Assembly: GCA_023667395.1 (NCBI GenBank)
Contig: JAMPAC010000026.1
Location: 1 to 35,671 of the forward strand
DNA: 35,671 nt
Origin: Blautia sp.
GTDB taxonomy: Bacteria > Bacillota > Clostridia > Lachnospirales > Lachnospiraceae
Direction of reading: 5' to 3'
Shown here: piece after piece, positions 4,817-32,021 of the stretch
How positions within the stretch are numbered: position 1 is the stretch's first letter
Layout: the number at the start of each line of letters is the position of its first letter
Made by a program: the position numbers and the translations under genes
Notes under the pieces: model-generated
What the model was told of the DNA's origin: nothing
The model's input: only the letters and a program-made list of their open reading frames with translations
Databases searched by the model: none

Positions 4817-5413
4817 ATGCGTTTGGCGGGAAAGAGATTTGGGTTTCGCAGGGTTCCGGTATTGCAGATCTTTATAGCGGGTTTTCTGGCGGGAATCCTG
4901 ATCGTGAATATGGGAGAGAGCATTTTACTGGACAAAACGGGTCTGTTTGATGAGGAAGTACTTTACCACATGAAATATATGACCGTTGACTGTAATGCTC
5001 TCTTTTGTTATGCCCTGCGAAAGAGGCTGCTGACCGTCCTGATCCTGGCGGTTCTGTCCACCACTTACCTGGGACTGACGGTCTGTGTGGGTACGGCACT
5101 GTGGTATGGAGCGGCGGCGGGCGGCCTGCTGGCGGTGATGGTGCTGCGCTATGGCATGAAAGGGATCCTGCTGGCGGCGGCAAGCCTGTTTCCCCATTAT
5201 CTGATCTTTTTCCCTGCCATATTCACGCTGCTGGCATGGGGGGAGAGCGTATATGGAAGTATTTATCACCGGATCGGCATGGAGCCGGAGAAGAATCTCC
5301 TGATCAAAAAAACGGGGCAGCTTGCGGCGGTCGTCGGGATGACCGTGGCAGGCTGCGCCCTGGAGGGATATGTAAATCCCGGAGTGTTCCTGAGTTTATT
5401 GAAGATCTTCTGA
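4817..5413 (+). CDS. spoIIM: SpoIIM-like stage II sporulation membrane protein
   Basis: Polytopic membrane protein of 198 residues with four to six hydrophobic segments. The SpoIIM family acts with SpoIID and SpoIIP in peptidoglycan remodelling during engulfment. Supporting features are the length, the small-residue-rich segments, the cytoplasmic loop with KNLLIKKTGQ, and a final helix with CALEGYVNPGVFL, similar to the conserved end of SpoIIM. The neighbouring Nudix gene supports the call. Ribosome-site spacing is poor (AGGAGAG at about 4797-4803, roughly 14 bases before ATG). The gene ends facing aroF across a hairpin array. Confidence 0.75.
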   Translation: MRLAGKRFGFRRVPVLQIFIAGFLAGILIVNMGESILLDKTGLFDEEVLYHMKYMTVDCNALFCYALRKRLLTVLILAVLSTTYLGLTVCVGTALWYGAAAGGLLAVMVLRYGMKGILLAAASLFPHYLIFFPAIFTLLAWGESVYGSIYHRIGMEPEKNLLIKKTGQLAAVVGMTVAGCALEGYVNPGVFLSLLKIF

Positions 5414-5731
5414 ATCCGCTACATCCGTAGCGTTCTTCGGGGTGAAATTTTTTTCACCCTAACCTCCATGCCGCCTCTGGCGGCACAAATCTTTCATGAG
5501 AAGAATGCCCGAATTCTGGGCATTCTTTGGTGTGAGACTTAGAGTTTCTTCGCGAAACAGCCCTTGCTGTGAGCGGTTAGAAACTCTTCTTACACTAACC
5601 CACATGATTTCGCCCTGCGGAATCACAAATCCGGATGAAGAATGCCCGGTTTTTGGGCATTCTTTGGTGTGAAGCTTAGAAGTTCTTTGCGAAACAGCCT
5701 CTGCTGTGAGCATTAGAACTTCTCTTCACAC
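5414..5731 (-). repeat. tandem array of A-B-C hairpin modules, 3' of aroF
   Basis: Read on the aroF strand, the aroF stop codon is followed at once by repeated units of about 137 bases. Each unit has three parts. Module A is a long hairpin, at 5667-5731 and 5530-5595, with outer stem GTGTGA.., an inner 8-bp stem and a CAGC/GCTG tip. Module B is a perfect 9-bp stem with a 7-base loop: AGAATGCCC/GGGCATTCT at 5639-5663 and 5502-5526. Module C is a hairpin with a 3-base loop: TGATTTCGC/GCGGAATCA near 5604-5624 and TGCCGCC/GGCGGCA near 5470-5486. A third, shortened A (GGGTGAAA/TTTCACCC, 5440-5459) and B (CGCTAC/GTAGCG, 5417-5432) end the array at the spoIIM stop. No plausible gene lies here. Confidence 0.8.
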
Positions 5732-6759
5732 TATTCATACTCCGCGATATCGTAAATCAGTTTCTCGGAAGCCTCCCAGCCCAGGCAGGGGTCGGTAATG
5801 GATTTGCCGTAAACGCCGTCGCCGATCTTCTGGCATCCCTCCTCGATGTAGCTTTCGATCATGACGCCCTTTACCAGATGATAGATATCAGGGCTTAGTT
5901 TACGGCTGTGCATGACCTCTTTCACAATGCGGATCTGCTGCTCAAACTGCTTGCCGGAGTTGGAGTGGTTCGCGTCGATGACGCAGCCAGGGTGCTTCAG
6001 ATCCATTTTCCCATACATTTCCAACAGAAGGTTCAGATCCTCATAATGGTAGTTGGGAATATTGTTTCCGTGCTTGTTTACCGCGCCCCGCAGGATGGTG
6101 TGGGTCAGGTCGTTGCCGGAAGTCTTTACCTCCCAGCCCCGGTAAATGAAAGAGTGGGGGTGCTGCGCCGCATAGACGGAGTTCAGCATGACGGACAGGT
6201 CTCCGCTGGTGGGGTTCTTCATGCCCGAAGCCACGTCAAACCCGCTGACGGTGATACGGTGCTGCTGGTCTTCCACGGAACGCGCGCCGATGGCCACATA
6301 GGAGAGGATATCGGATACATAGCCCCAGTTGTCGGGATAAAGCATCTCGTCCGCCGCGGTCAGCCCTGTTTCGGAGATGGCGCGGATGTGCATTTTTCTC
6401 ATGGCCATCAGTCCTGCGAGAAAGTCGGGTTTTTTCTCAGGATCGGGCTGGTGGACGATACCCTTGTAGCCCTCGCCGGTAGTGCGTGGTTTATTGGTGT
6501 AGATCCTGGGTATCAGGATCAGTTTGTCTTTCACCTTATCGTTTACCTTTGCCAGGCGGGTGATATAGTCGCAGACGGAATCCTCGTTGTCCGCAGAGCA
6601 GGGTCCGATGATGACCAGGAATTTCCGGCTCTTTCCGGTCAGAACCTCACGGATCTCTGCATCTCTCTGCTCCTTGATCCCGGCAAGGGATGCAGGCAGG
6701 GGCAGCTGCTGTCTGATTTCCTCAGGTGAGGGCAGCCTTTGTATAAATTCAAAACTCAT
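5731..6759 (-). CDS. aroF: 3-deoxy-7-phosphoheptulonate (DAHP) synthase, class I
   Basis: Protein of 342 residues that condenses phosphoenolpyruvate with erythrose 4-phosphate, the first step of aromatic amino acid synthesis. Motifs: IIGPCSADNED (50-60), RIYTNKPRTTG (85-95), a central Lys-containing sheet region and DANHSNSGKQ toward the C-terminus. The length fits the AroFGH type, which has no separate ACT or chorismate mutase domain. ATG at 6757-6759 is preceded on its strand by AGAAAGGA. No other aromatic gene is adjacent. The stop codon touches the first module of the hairpin array. Confidence 0.93.
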   Translation of the reverse strand: MSFEFIQRLPSPEEIRQQLPLPASLAGIKEQRDAEIREVLTGKSRKFLVIIGPCSADNEDSVCDYITRLAKVNDKVKDKLILIPRIYTNKPRTTGEGYKGIVHQPDPEKKPDFLAGLMAMRKMHIRAISETGLTAADEMLYPDNWGYVSDILSYVAIGARSVEDQQHRITVSGFDVASGMKNPTSGDLSVMLNSVYAAQHPHSFIYRGWEVKTSGNDLTHTILRGAVNKHGNNIPNYHYEDLNLLLEMYGKMDLKHPGCVIDANHSNSGKQFEQQIRIVKEVMHSRKLSPDIYHLVKGVMIESYIEEGCQKIGDGVYGKSITDPCLGWEASEKLIYDIAEYE

Positions 6760-15407: not shown

Positions 15408-16040
15408 ATGGAATTTATGTCGGGATATTACAGGCAGAAAGAGGATTCCACGGCGTTGCTGCTGCAGCAGTATGTGTGCCGGGAAGTGCCGGTCTGCTTT
15501 GGATGCGTCTGCGGCGGGGAAAGCCGTGAGGCAGGAATGGCAGGAGGAGTGTTTACCGGTCGGCTCCTGAAAGAATTTCGCGGGTTCAGCCTGTTGAAAG
15601 CAGTGGAAAAGCCGTCGGTTTTCCTGAAGAAAATGGAGAGAAAAATAGGCAGATGCCGGGAGAATTGTGATGTCCCGGCCGATTTCTGGACGGCGGGGAT
15701 CCTGTGCGTGGCGGAGAACTTTTTGCTTTTTTTTGAGGGAGGGGCGAAGATCGTCTTGTGCAATACCGGGTTTGGGCGTCCGTCGCTGCAGGAGATCGGG
15801 GACGAGGGCAGGGAGCGGCGGATGGCGGTTCAGCAGGGGAGCATGGAGGCGGGAATCGGCATACTGCTGGCTTCGGAAGGTTTTTACGACCATGTTCCCC
15901 GGGAGGATATGCTGAGCTGTCTGTGGGTAAAGGAGATCCGCAGTTCCGGGCAGACCATGAAGAGGATCAGGGAACTGGGCGGAATGGCGGAGCAGCGGGG
16001 CGGCAGGGGAGTGGGGGCGCTGCTTCTGGAGGTCAGGTAA
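15408..16040 (+). CDS. degenerate PP2C-like protein (putative pseudophosphatase)
   Basis: Protein of 210 residues with the order of PP2C motifs but altered key residues. YRQKEDS (8-14) matches the first motif. FGCVCGGE (31-38) sits where family members have a DGMGG metal site, so the Asp becomes C33. LLASEGFYDHVP replaces the SDG motif, Asp to Glu. The final Asp-Asn pair is absent, with GGRGVGALLLEV in its place. Loss of these ligands argues against Mn/Mg-dependent catalysis. The protein is Cys-rich for its size. GGAGGG at 15397-15402 supports ATG 15408; GTG 15402 is the alternative. A Ser/Thr kinase gene follows, the usual kinase-phosphatase pairing. Confidence 0.6.
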   Translation: MEFMSGYYRQKEDSTALLLQQYVCREVPVCFGCVCGGESREAGMAGGVFTGRLLKEFRGFSLLKAVEKPSVFLKKMERKIGRCRENCDVPADFWTAGILCVAENFLLFFEGGAKIVLCNTGFGRPSLQEIGDEGRERRMAVQQGSMEAGIGILLASEGFYDHVPREDMLSCLWVKEIRSSGQTMKRIRELGGMAEQRGGRGVGALLLEVR

Positions 16041-16174
16041 GGGAGAGGGGTAAGCGGCTGGAAGAATGCCGCGCAGTCATTTTATTTCCGCAAGCAATGA
16101 GGCAAGGCAGCGTAGCTGACTTGTGGTGCGGACGGCATGACAGGAAGAAACGAAAGAAAGGATGCGGCAAGGAT

Positions 16175-17188
16175 ATGGCAAAAACCACAGGAAAGGAAGC
16201 CGTTTTTCATTACTGCCTTGTGCGGACGCTGGGGGAAGGCGCATTTTCGCAGGTCTATCTGGCGGAAGACAAAAACGGGAATCCGTATGCCTGCAAGGTC
16301 AGCAGGGAAATCAAGATGCTGCGCCGGGAAGCGGAGATGCTGAGTCGGCTGTATCACCCTTTATTTCCGGCATATCTGGGATATGAGGAAAGCGGAGGTA
16401 CAGGCAGGCTTTTTATGGAATACATTCCCGGCAGGAGTCTGGGGCAGCTGGCGCGGCGCAGGGGAGGGTTCTCCGCCACACAGGCCATGCGGATCACGGA
16501 AGAACTGGCGGACGGGCTGCGCTACCTGCATGAGCGGCAGCCGACGGTTCTGTATCGTGACCTGAAGCCGGACAATATTATAGTCTGTGAGGACGGGCAT
16601 GTGAAGATCGTCGATCTGGGTTGCGCCTGTGTTCTGGACGAACAGGGAGGCGAGAGGGTGGGGACGCCCGGATTTGCCCCGCCGGAGCAGCTGTCCGCAG
16701 GCCGGACGGCGGGAATCTACAGCGACGTATATGGTCTGGGCAGGACGATACAGAACGTGGTGGCGCAGACACGCAGGCGGCGGGTGGGCAAGGCAGCCGG
16801 AATAAGACGCCGGGGGAAGCGTGCACCTGAAAACAGGGAGAAGATATGCTGTAAACGCGCCGATATATGGCGTTATGAAGAAAAAGGATGCTGCAGCGGA
16901 GACAGAAAGCGTTACGGAGAGGGAGGATGTCAAAGCGGAGGTAGAAAGCATTACGGAGAAAGAGGATGCCACAGCTGGGAAAGAAAGCGTTATGCAGAGG
17001 AGCGGAAATGCCGCAGGCGGCTGGAGCAAATGATAGAAGAAAGCACCCGTGAAGACTTCCGGCAGCGTCCCCAGGATATGATCAGCATATCCAATATCCT
17101 CACCGGAAAAAAGAAAGGGGAAGAAGGAATCATCTGTGAAAAAAATATCTGGGAAAGCCATTATAAAAACCCTTGCAGTCTGCCATGA
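16175..17188 (+). CDS. Ser/Thr protein kinase with repeat-containing insert
   Basis: Protein of 337 residues. Kinase motifs: glycine loop [11 protein letters not shown] (19-29), catalytic-site lysine K41 (YACK), YRDLKPDN (127-134, Tyr replacing the usual His, D129 kept), DLG for DFG (147-149), APPEQ (168-172), and SDVYGLG of helix F. Residues about 199-282 are an Arg-, Gly- and Cys-rich insert with four 13-residue repeats. The frame then returns to kinase-like sequence, [17 protein letters not shown]. No membrane helix or PASTA repeat is present, unlike PrkC. The upstream frame from 15758 is out of phase with the PP2C-like gene and not gene-like; ATG 16175 has only a weak site, so the start is uncertain. 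Confidence 0.75.
16868..17023 (+). repeat. four 39-bp tandem repeats inside the kinase gene
   Basis: GCGTTA/GCATTA cores recur every 39 bases (from 16870, 16909, 16948 and 16987). In the kinase frame they encode 13-residue units of the form RY-x-E-x-GC-x-S-G-x-R. In a second frame (open from 16821) the same DNA gives an acidic [16 protein letters not shown] repeat. Units diverge toward the 3' end. Confidence 0.8.
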
Positions 17189-17200
17189 ATCTGATATACT
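17173..17200 (+). promoter_or_regulatory. fsa promoter
   Basis: TTGCAG at 17173-17178 and TATACT at 17195-17200 are 16 bases apart. It overlaps the 3' end of the kinase gene. Confidence 0.5.
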
Positions 17201-17262
17201 TAAGAAAAGAACACGTGCACGGGCACGGAATGATAAAATACATAGAAAAGGAGATTCAGGTT

Positions 17263-17916
17263 ATGCGTTTTTTTATTGATACCGCAAAGGTAGAAGACAT
17301 CAGGAAAGCAAACGATATGGGAGTGATCTGCGGCGTTACCACCAACCCTTCCCTGATTGCGAAAGAGGGCAGAGTATTTGAGGAAGTGATCGCGGAGATC
17401 GCGTCCATCGTTGACGGACCCATCAGCGGGGAGGTAAAGGCCACCACCGTGGATGCGGAGGGAATGATCGAAGAGGGCAGGGCAATCGCGAAGATCCATC
17501 CCAACATGGTGGTGAAGATTCCCATGACGGCGGAAGGGCTGAAAGCCTGCAAGGCGCTGAGTTCCGAGGGAATCAAGACCAATGTGACGCTTATCTTCTC
17601 GGCGAACCAGGCGCTGCTTGCTGCCCGCGCGGGCGCAACTTATGTATCTCCTTTCCTGGGGCGTCTGGATGATATCAGTGAGAGGGGCGTGGATCTGATC
17701 CGGGAGATTTCGGATATTTTCTCCATGACCGACCTGGAGACCCAGATCATCTGCGCCAGCGTCCGCAATCCCGTGCATGTGACGGACTGCGCCCTGGCAG
17801 GCGCGGATATCGCCACGGTTCCCTATTCCGTGATCGAGCAGATGGTAAAGCATCCCCTGACGGAGGCGGGCATCGCCAAGTTCCAGGCGGATTATAAGGC
17901 TGTGTTCGGGGAATAG
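17263..17916 (+). CDS. fsa: transaldolase / fructose-6-phosphate aldolase family protein
   Basis: Protein of 217 residues, the size of the short MipB/TalC family. It starts [16 protein letters not shown] and has [13 protein letters not shown] (24-36). Schiff-base Lys K85 lies in MVVKIPMT, and later [17 protein letters not shown] and SPFLGRLDD. Members act as transaldolase in the pentose phosphate pathway or as fructose 6-phosphate aldolase; the sequence alone does not decide. AAAAGGAGA (17247-17255) sets ATG 17263 rather than 17173. The stop is followed immediately by the A module of a hairpin element. Confidence 0.93.
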
Positions 17917-18030
17917 GGTGAGAAGAGTTTCTAACCGCTCGCAGCGAGGGCTGCTTCGCGGAGAAACTCTAAGGCTCACCCCGAAAAACGCCTAAAACAC
18001 GGCGTTTTTCATAAGCCAACTTGTTGGCTT
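17917..18030 (+). repeat. A-B-C hairpin element directly after fsa
   Basis: Module A spans 17917-17980: GGTGAG/CTCACC outside, AGAGTTTCT/AGAAACTCT inside, and a GCAGC/GCTGC tip. Module B is a perfect 10-bp stem, GAAAAACGCC (17983-17992) with GGCGTTTTTC (18001-18010). Module C is a perfect 8-bp stem, AAGCCAAC (18013-18020) with GTTGGCTT (18023-18030). Order, spacing and position right after a GAATAG end match the array after aroF, but the B and C stems have different sequences with pairing kept. It fills the gap between fsa and the spore-protein gene that faces it. Confidence 0.8.
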
Positions 18031-18045
18031 TGGGATTGTGTGATT

Positions 18046-31768: not shown

Positions 31769-32021
31769 GGGGGTAGCGGCGAAAAAGGGACGGCGGTGGC
31801 GCAGTGTCCTGTGTCGGGAGTGGGGGTGGCGGCGAAAAAGGGACGGCGGTGGAGCAGTGTCCTGTGTCGGGCAGACGAGGCAGCGCGGAACTGAACTAAC
31901 TGCCAACTGCGACTAGGGCGCGAATAGGGATTTCGCGTCCAAGTCTCCGTAGGCAGTGGATTTCATTTCCGCTAAGGGCGCCTCCCAAAGTCTGCCCGGC
32001 ACAGGACACTGCTCCACCGCC
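31769..32021. repeat. direct repeat and large inverted repeat upstream of csoR
   Basis: A 50-base segment is repeated directly at 31769-31818 and 31822-31871 with two mismatches. The second copy leads into a 32-base arm (31845-31876, beginning GGCGGTGGAGCAGTGTCC) that pairs with 31990-32021 with a single mismatch. The 113-base interior can pair further: GAGGC/GCCTC, GCGGAA/TTCCGC, CTGCC/GGCAG and GCGCGAA/TTCGCGT. No gene seen in 31761-32061. It could be a MITE-like repeat or a folded RNA. Confidence 0.8.

Follow-up and report, generated by a model that had tools for sequence, protein, structure and literature searches.

A tandem array of layered hairpins behind aroF, probably a local assembly of a dispersed and modular palindromic repeat of Lachnospiraceae

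REPs are described as dispersed intergenic palindromes, which are located mostly between co-directional and convergent open reading frames, are found near 3′ ends and, in the case of GTAG REPs, often supply with their termini the TAG stop codon of the flanking open reading frames (PMC3733652). Ribosome stalling has been reported for Escherichia coli REPs situated no more than 15 nt from a stop codon (PMC12306157), and the main text of this 2025 REP survey contains neither a word beginning with Lachnospir- nor one beginning with Clostridi-. The BOX elements of Streptococcus pneumoniae are composite, consist of boxA, a variable boxB, and boxC, and are predicted to form stem-loops, with a number of modules that differs from strain to strain (PMC3049150). 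Template switching at quasipalindromes renders imperfect inverted repeats perfect, or brings them closer to this state, in one event (PMC7202029). Among the papers listed by a search of the open-access literature, none dealt, as judged by title and start of the abstract, with a hairpin repeat such as the one described here.

The stretch of DNA analyzed (the window, 35,671 nucleotides) contains a gap of 318 bases between aroF, which encodes a protein of the DAHP synthetase I family, and a convergent gene of the SpoIIM family (Table 1). Hairpins fill this gap throughout, in the order A1-B1-C1-A2-B2-C2-A3 (short)-B3 (truncated) on the aroF strand. The initial annotation had claimed an A-B-C unit about every 137 bases from the aroF stop codon, with two full units and a shortened A-B, which was confirmed by repeat search, folding, and inspection by eye. 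A mechanical repeat search of the gap detected a direct repeat of 75 nt (87% identical) with a spacing of 137 bases. The fold of the 318 bases on the aroF strand reached −132.9 kcal/mol compared to a shuffle mean of −86.4 (z −8.3), and the opposite strand gave a z of −13.9; none of 100 shuffles was as good in either case. Each full unit is arranged as A-B-C. It opens at A|GTGTGA with hairpin A, which is long and layered, and continues with hairpin B, a linker, hairpin C, and a purine-rich tail. The layers of A1 comprise an outer stem (GTGTGAAG/CTTCACAC), a middle stem (AGAAGTTCT/AGAACTTCT), and a tip (CAGC/GCTG). The first G of A1 is the G of the aroF stop codon TAG, so that the unit overlaps the stop. 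The tail of C1 runs into unit 2 (...GGTTAGTGTAAG), A3 corresponds to a hairpin A without the inner hairpins (GGGTGAAAAAAATTTCACCC), and the end of unit 3 abuts the stop codon of the SpoIIM-family gene. By eye, no intrinsic-terminator T-run was found after A, B, or C in the array, in agreement with the absence of a classic T-run noted before. Terminal inverted repeats were likewise not found by eye; the ends of the unit are direct (GTGTGA ... GTGTGA).

Table 1. Features of the array behind aroF and of the second locus in the window. Hairpin limits in the aroF array were set by eye from sequence and fold; R1 is the covariance model of hairpin A described in the text.
Feature	Position	Strand	Basis or remark
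aroF (DAHP synthetase I family), upstream of array	5731..6759	-	stop codon TAG 5731-5733
SpoIIM-family (SpoIIM-like) gene, convergent to aroF	4817..5413	+	stop ends at 5413
Unit 1 hairpin A (A1)	5667..5731	-	R1 match 5667-5732, 85.8 bits
Unit 1 hairpin B (B1), AAGAATGCCC/GGGCATTCTT	5637..5664	-	repeat search and sequence
Unit 1 hairpin C (C1), TGATTCCGC/GCGAAATCA	5605..5625	-	limits by eye
Unit 2 hairpin A (A2)	5530..5597	-	R1 match 5530-5596, 89.4 bits
Unit 2 hairpin B (B2)	5500..5527	-	repeat search and sequence
Unit 2 hairpin C (C2), GTGCCGCC AGA GGCGGCA	5469-5486; with tail CATGGAGGTTAG 5459..5486	-	
Shortened unit 3	5414..5459	-	A3 5440-5459 and truncated B3 5414-5438; by eye
Second locus, hairpin A	17915..17981	+	starts inside TAG stop of transaldolase-family gene 17173-17916
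Second locus, hairpin B (17983-18010) and C-like hairpin with tail ...GTGTGA	17983..18043	+	limits by eye

Behind the element at the second locus stands another hairpin, GC-rich and separate from it, whose tail is rich in T (by eye). Two tandem repeats of other kinds are also present in the window, a 53-nt repeat at 31769-31871 (1.9 copies, 96% matches) and a 39-nt repeat at 16870-16992 (3.2 copies), the latter within an open reading frame with a protein kinase domain (15758-17188).

Using the whole element of the aroF gap as query, blastn detected 53 matches in the host genome at E ≤ 10, 25 of these at E ≤ 1e-7. A covariance model of hairpin A (R1) was built from 13 hand-picked copies of the host genome with a simple hairpin A; nested copies (such as L004, L009, and L013) and the irregular L014 were omitted from the alignment. 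R1 gave 59 matches in the host genome at E ≤ 0.1, 12 of which are opposite-strand rows, leaving 47 places (34 at E < 1e-6). The genome of the nearest named AroF relative found (L089, 97% identical), G176, contains 91 R1 matches at E ≤ 0.001. Its copies form equal-score groups with identical hairpins, which suggests recent amplification, and tandem arrays are seen among them as well. One locus of this genome (L229, G176:C1:69982-70545) holds five hairpins A in an array behind one gene, with a spacing of approximately 125 nt.

With the host genome counted in each sample, R1 matched 28 of 61 genomes of the host's genus and none of 38 genomes of the other genera of the order, 24 of 397 genomes (21 of 334 genera) in the family sample, and four of 391 genomes in the class sample, one of them from another family (G874), the last two samples having been searched with stricter filters by which weak matches are lost. 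The named AroF relatives are labeled mostly Acetatifactor or Lachnospiraceae. Seven loci belonging to six other genera were read: a B-like hairpin comes after hairpin A in six of them (the B-like sequence of L264 differs), and in six the distance of the A start from the stop of an upstream open frame is −7 to +1 nt, one of these frames being only 39 codons long. The 80 loci of named relatives (up to 21 kb around aroF) contain nine R1 matches in six loci, none of which places a hairpin A immediately after aroF. Two copies, approximately 7.6 kb apart on one contig, are present in the genome from another family of the class (L329, G874:C11:29000-46000). This contig also holds VWA/AAA and Flp/type II secretion-like genes; a scan of ten of its proteins gave Pfam matches for four (VWA, AAA, type II secretion ATPase, RcpC/SAF), none of them an obvious mobilizer. 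The G874 copies may be due either to horizontal transfer or to contamination.

The repeat is a dispersed, modular, and palindromic family of Lachnospiraceae, probably non-autonomous, which is frequent in the genus of the host (Acetatifactor, as judged by the named relatives). The initial annotation had named the absence of further copies as a refuting observation, and many copies were found with the covariance model. It had likewise named a match to a known Rfam family, and Rfam 15 yielded no match at gathering score in the window or in 19 loci. A permissive scan returned only four matches below threshold (Cyano-1, IMPDH, mir-3202, and Yfr1; E 0.57-5.6), far under the gathering scores. A phage- or plasmid-borne origin is unsupported: no blastn match was found in phage and plasmid records, and two exact patterns were absent from viral contigs.

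Orthologous sites with and without the element were compared by eye throughout, the sites of the relatives having been located partly by two chimeric flank searches. The region after aroF was inspected in 34 of the 80 named loci; L090 and L092 are empty there, and L089 carries a reduced unit. For the site at 17915, 12 loci were tried, seven of which gave no left-flank alignment, and four are empty (L176, L177, L183, and L186). In genome G130 (L170), an element starts from the same base but has different hairpins, and the flanks are 89% and 98% identical. Fourteen G176 sites could be located in the host genome, where eight are without a unit (L191, L197, L198, L205, L207, L209, L219, and L222), three are filled with other hairpins (L193, L203, and L208), and three show a remnant or a single terminal repeat (L199, L200, and L210). 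Conversely, 14 host sites were located in G176, with six lacking a unit, three filled (L053, L054, and L056), and five partial or reduced to a remnant. Several of the unit-free sites keep AGNGTGA(G)-like bases and may therefore be deletion products, deletion and absence being indistinguishable there. At L198 and L222, the element stands approximately 7-10 codons ahead of the stop codon of the relative and provides a new stop, and at L203 it parts two genes whose ends overlap in G001. These three cases, as read by eye, weaken the assumption of a strict insertion exactly at the stop codon, since the element enters some codons ahead of the native stop. In the filled/empty pairs, whose right junctions are imperfect, no target-site duplication could be read by eye. 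The terminal GTGTGA is unlikely to be such a duplication, because at two shared sites (L058/L235 and L059/L234) both genomes have a similar right copy, whereas the left copy differs.

The comparison of shared sites revealed how the hairpins themselves change. At eight sites filled in both the host and G176, the left flanks are 74-98% identical (over 300 nt; 62 nt at one site) and hairpin A is 63-91% identical; in the pair L057/L256, flank and hairpin are nearly equal in this respect (92% and 91%). The pair L035/L237 has a common hairpin B, but an inner A of another type, and in L040/L212, the difference is found mainly in the tip hairpin. In L054 and L310, a pair that came from flank homology and not from structure, the host has an 81-nt inner hairpin exactly where G176 has GGGTGAAAA|TTTCACCC; hairpin B, the linker, and C do not differ between the two, and G176 has an extra stretch of 46 nt behind C. 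Whole inner hairpins are exchanged, gained, or lost as blocks at shared sites, and they turn over more rapidly than the surrounding DNA. The inner hairpin types pair with several middle stems and B types, and 42 combinations of outer, middle, and inner part were counted in 108 copies using rough, hand-made classes (25 copies classified as "other"). A second repeat, (G)TTTGAAAATAAATTTTCAAATATTGATTGGTATGCGTGC-like, was seen behind the C tail in L029, L034, L046, L204, L206, L214, and L215 and is possibly another family nested with the hairpin repeat. Tandem runs occur in some linkers, with GGGACCAATCAGGTTCCGT-like units in L205 and CCCCCCAAAGAGGTGGGCGCTG-like units in L277 (G001).

The stems show strong covariation, the test for which had been proposed with the initial annotation. 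In the 13-copy alignment of hairpin A, 99.1% of the pair cells are standard, 34 changes are two-sided and none is one-sided, and the covariation score was reached by none of 500 shuffles. A wider alignment (57 loci searched; 65 matches with 63 distinct rows, five being opposite-strand rows of the same places) contains 220 two-sided versus 19 one-sided changed cells, in a set that favors paired copies because R1 matches are ranked partly by pairing. One-sided changes are present in copies that look decayed (e.g., L256). RNA helices normally drift through G-U pairs. According to RNAfold, these make up 41 of 2,084 pairs (2.0%) in 80 distinct A copies and 11.6% in shuffles. A rough control, consisting of 112 terminator-like hairpins chosen by T-run and fold energy within the 80 named loci, also gave 11.6% when RNAfold was applied in the same way. 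The two-sided stem changes with few G-U pairs point to an evolution at the level of the palindrome, that is, of the DNA.

In 61 of 108 scored copies (16 of 30 in the host, 45 of 78 in G176), the distance between the stop codon of the upstream sense open reading frame and the beginning of hairpin A is −7 to +2 nt. The other 47 lie outside this range of a called sense stop; many of them are array-internal, and the calling of open reading frames was crude, as L037, the window copy at 17915, was scored otherwise though it starts in the stop codon. The sharpness of this distance is partly explained by stop codons that the element itself carries. The stop at −2 is T|AG (T|AA in L036), the stop at −7 is the TGA of AGTGTGA and belongs to the element, and the stop at −20 (five copies) is a TAA inside A. 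At some sites, the left end supplies the stop codon of the upstream gene. L036 was scored −2, yet by eye it lies in a 5′ region behind a promoter-like box; L043 and L036, both in the host genome, begin directly after a TATAAT/TATACT box (by eye).

After removal of 32 copies preceded by another module and of the G176 copies at sites shared with the host, 69 sites were left, with 44 copies in sense orientation between co-directional genes (++), 11 divergent (−+), nine convergent (+−), two antisense (−−), and three near a contig end. One of the two antisense calls, L033, is sense by eye, and one G874 copy also looks antisense. A weak left motif, G-R-G-A-A-W-A, precedes the element on the sense strand: at the 69 sites, G was found at −6 in 40, G at −4 in 37, A at −3 in 40, A at −2 in 40, and A or T at −1 in 63 cases, followed by A in all 69, and positions −10 to −7 are flat. 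Part of this motif is ordinary gene-end composition, because A at −3 and −2 is common (61% and 49%) in 561 stop-aligned TAA/TAG gene ends of the named loci, where G at −6 and −4 accounts for 17% and 32%. The tails of the units (ATGACGGGAA, ATGACTGGAA, and ATGGAGGTTA) resemble the left motif, a resemblance that could explain the head-to-tail arrays.

Most probably, the hairpins behind aroF form a short tandem array. The repeat from which it is built would be dispersed, non-autonomous, modular, and palindromic, mobile now or in the past, and similar in behavior to REP/BIME or BOX elements. The "non-autonomous repeat" put forward in the initial annotation is thereby supported by dozens of dispersed copies, by empty and filled orthologous sites, and by tandem arrays. 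Its second proposal, a transcription barrier between convergent genes, does not hold, given that 44 of the 66 classified sites are co-directional and nine convergent, and that the element at 17915 is followed, by eye, by a separate hairpin with a T-rich tail. A bidirectional terminator or barrier specific to the aroF/SpoIIM pair would fit the position between these convergent genes, but it is scarcely credible: the co-directional majority and the genome-wide copies refute it as a general account, the stems have no T-run, and R1 placed no hairpin A directly behind aroF in the 80 named relatives. The remaining proposal, an RNA element of the 3′ UTR, keeps some plausibility because most copies lie in sense orientation; the low number of G-U pairs and the swapping of whole hairpins point to DNA-level evolution instead. 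In a broader form of this explanation, the repeat would primarily be an RNA element, whose intercistronic hairpins are retained because, after transcription, they shield the 3′ end of the upstream mRNA, hold up ribosomes past the stop codon, or attenuate the gene downstream. It could draw on the sense orientation (44 versus 2), the closeness to stop codons, the very stable folds, and the stalling reported for E. coli REPs at most 15 nt from a stop codon (PMC12306157). We nevertheless regard it as unlikely, because G-U pairs are far rarer than in terminator-like hairpins, the same site in close relatives holds another hairpin type, a reduced unit, or nothing, and L043 and L036 are situated in 5′ regions.

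Two further alternatives concern the way in which the units are moved. A REP/BIME family mobilized by a REP-associated tyrosine transposase (RAYT) would share with the repeat the intergenic location, the palindromes, the high copy number, and the position near 3′ ends, and the left end gives a TAG stop as do the GTAG REP termini (PMC3733652). Such a mobilization is very unlikely here, since no Y1_Tnp domain (PF01797, the RAYT-type transposase) was detected in the host genome or in the 91-copy genome G176, by which it is refuted for both as far as drafts allow. Across 37 genomes, Y1_Tnp matched nine of 20 with repeat copies and six of 17 without. Moreover, no fixed GTAG/CGTC tag was seen by eye beside hairpin C in the examined G176 copies with a tail within 130 nt, in which the bases at this position vary (GACGGG, GACTGG, GATTGG, GTCGGG, and GGAGG). 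Alternatively, a site-specific recombinase with AGTGTGA cores as its substrate might have built cassette-like arrays in the manner of integrons, as array units are separated and ended by GGGAA|GTGTGA-like junctions and a single AGGGTGAGAAGA remains at one site (L274). This is highly improbable, because the copies are spread genome-wide rather than collected at one platform and the core is not fixed, but covaries with the A stem (GGGTGA, GCGTGA, and GTGCGA).

For the dispersed palindromic repeat, the following course may be proposed. Units would enter the DNA behind G-R-G-A-A-W-A on the sense strand, and insertions would survive mainly at gene borders, where operons keep working, presumably because the left end has stops and the right tail, GGAGG or GGAAG, is usable as a ribosome-binding sequence. 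Once settled, the palindromes might be kept perfect and diversify through hairpin-templated strand switching and through whole hairpins that are exchanged at the dyad or inserted there in nested form, instead of through RNA-selected single substitutions. The import of a different hairpin would need a second process, for example, a short-homology exchange with another copy or a nested insertion. More tentatively, the repeat might represent a RAYT-independent class of mobile palindromes, a possibility to which we attach limited confidence. Its units would themselves be hairpins that grow like a "Russian doll" by insertion into the dyads of others. They would enter purine-rich sense-strand sites at gene borders and restore there a stop codon at the left end and a ribosome-binding sequence at the right end, which would allow operons to survive the insertion, and each hairpin would be a rapidly exchanged allele. 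As related genomes show the block gain, loss, and exchange of hairpins at fixed sites, this process is open to direct observation. The repeat also cautions against taking strong covariation that lacks G-U intermediates as proof of a selected RNA structure; being searchable, it is useful for the annotation of Lachnospiraceae operons.

Compared to the known systems, the repeat resembles REP/BIME elements in its intergenic position near 3′ ends, its high copy number, and a left end that may give a stop codon. It differs from them in its units of approximately 137 nt with three hairpins and nested layers (REPs comprise 20-40 bp), in the lack of a fixed GTAG/CGTC tag, and in the lack of a Y1 transposase in the host genome and G176; whereas neighbors have opposite orientation in many REP families, its arrays run head-to-tail. 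On the basis of the tag and RAYT searches as done here, the repeat is not a member of the REPs. With ERIC, Correia, and other MITE-like repeats, it shares the short, non-coding, and folded nature and the occurrence in operons (in part PMC3049150), but no terminal inverted repeats frame the whole hairpin unit, and no autonomous partner was recognized. Quasipalindrome template-switch mutagenesis would yield two-sided changes without G-U pairs; it is a mutation process studied in E. coli reporters and no repeat family, and explains the correction of arms, but not the import of new hairpins. Similar to BOX (PMC3049150), the repeat is composite, consists of stem-loops in a fixed A-B-C order, and has modules that vary between related genomes. 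In contrast to BOX, no terminal inverted repeats were seen and no target-site duplication was legible, and the repeat is characterized by its sense orientation and its contact with stop codons. Whereas BOX elements vary in the number of boxB modules, the hairpin repeat swaps whole hairpins, one being gained or lost at the dyad of another.
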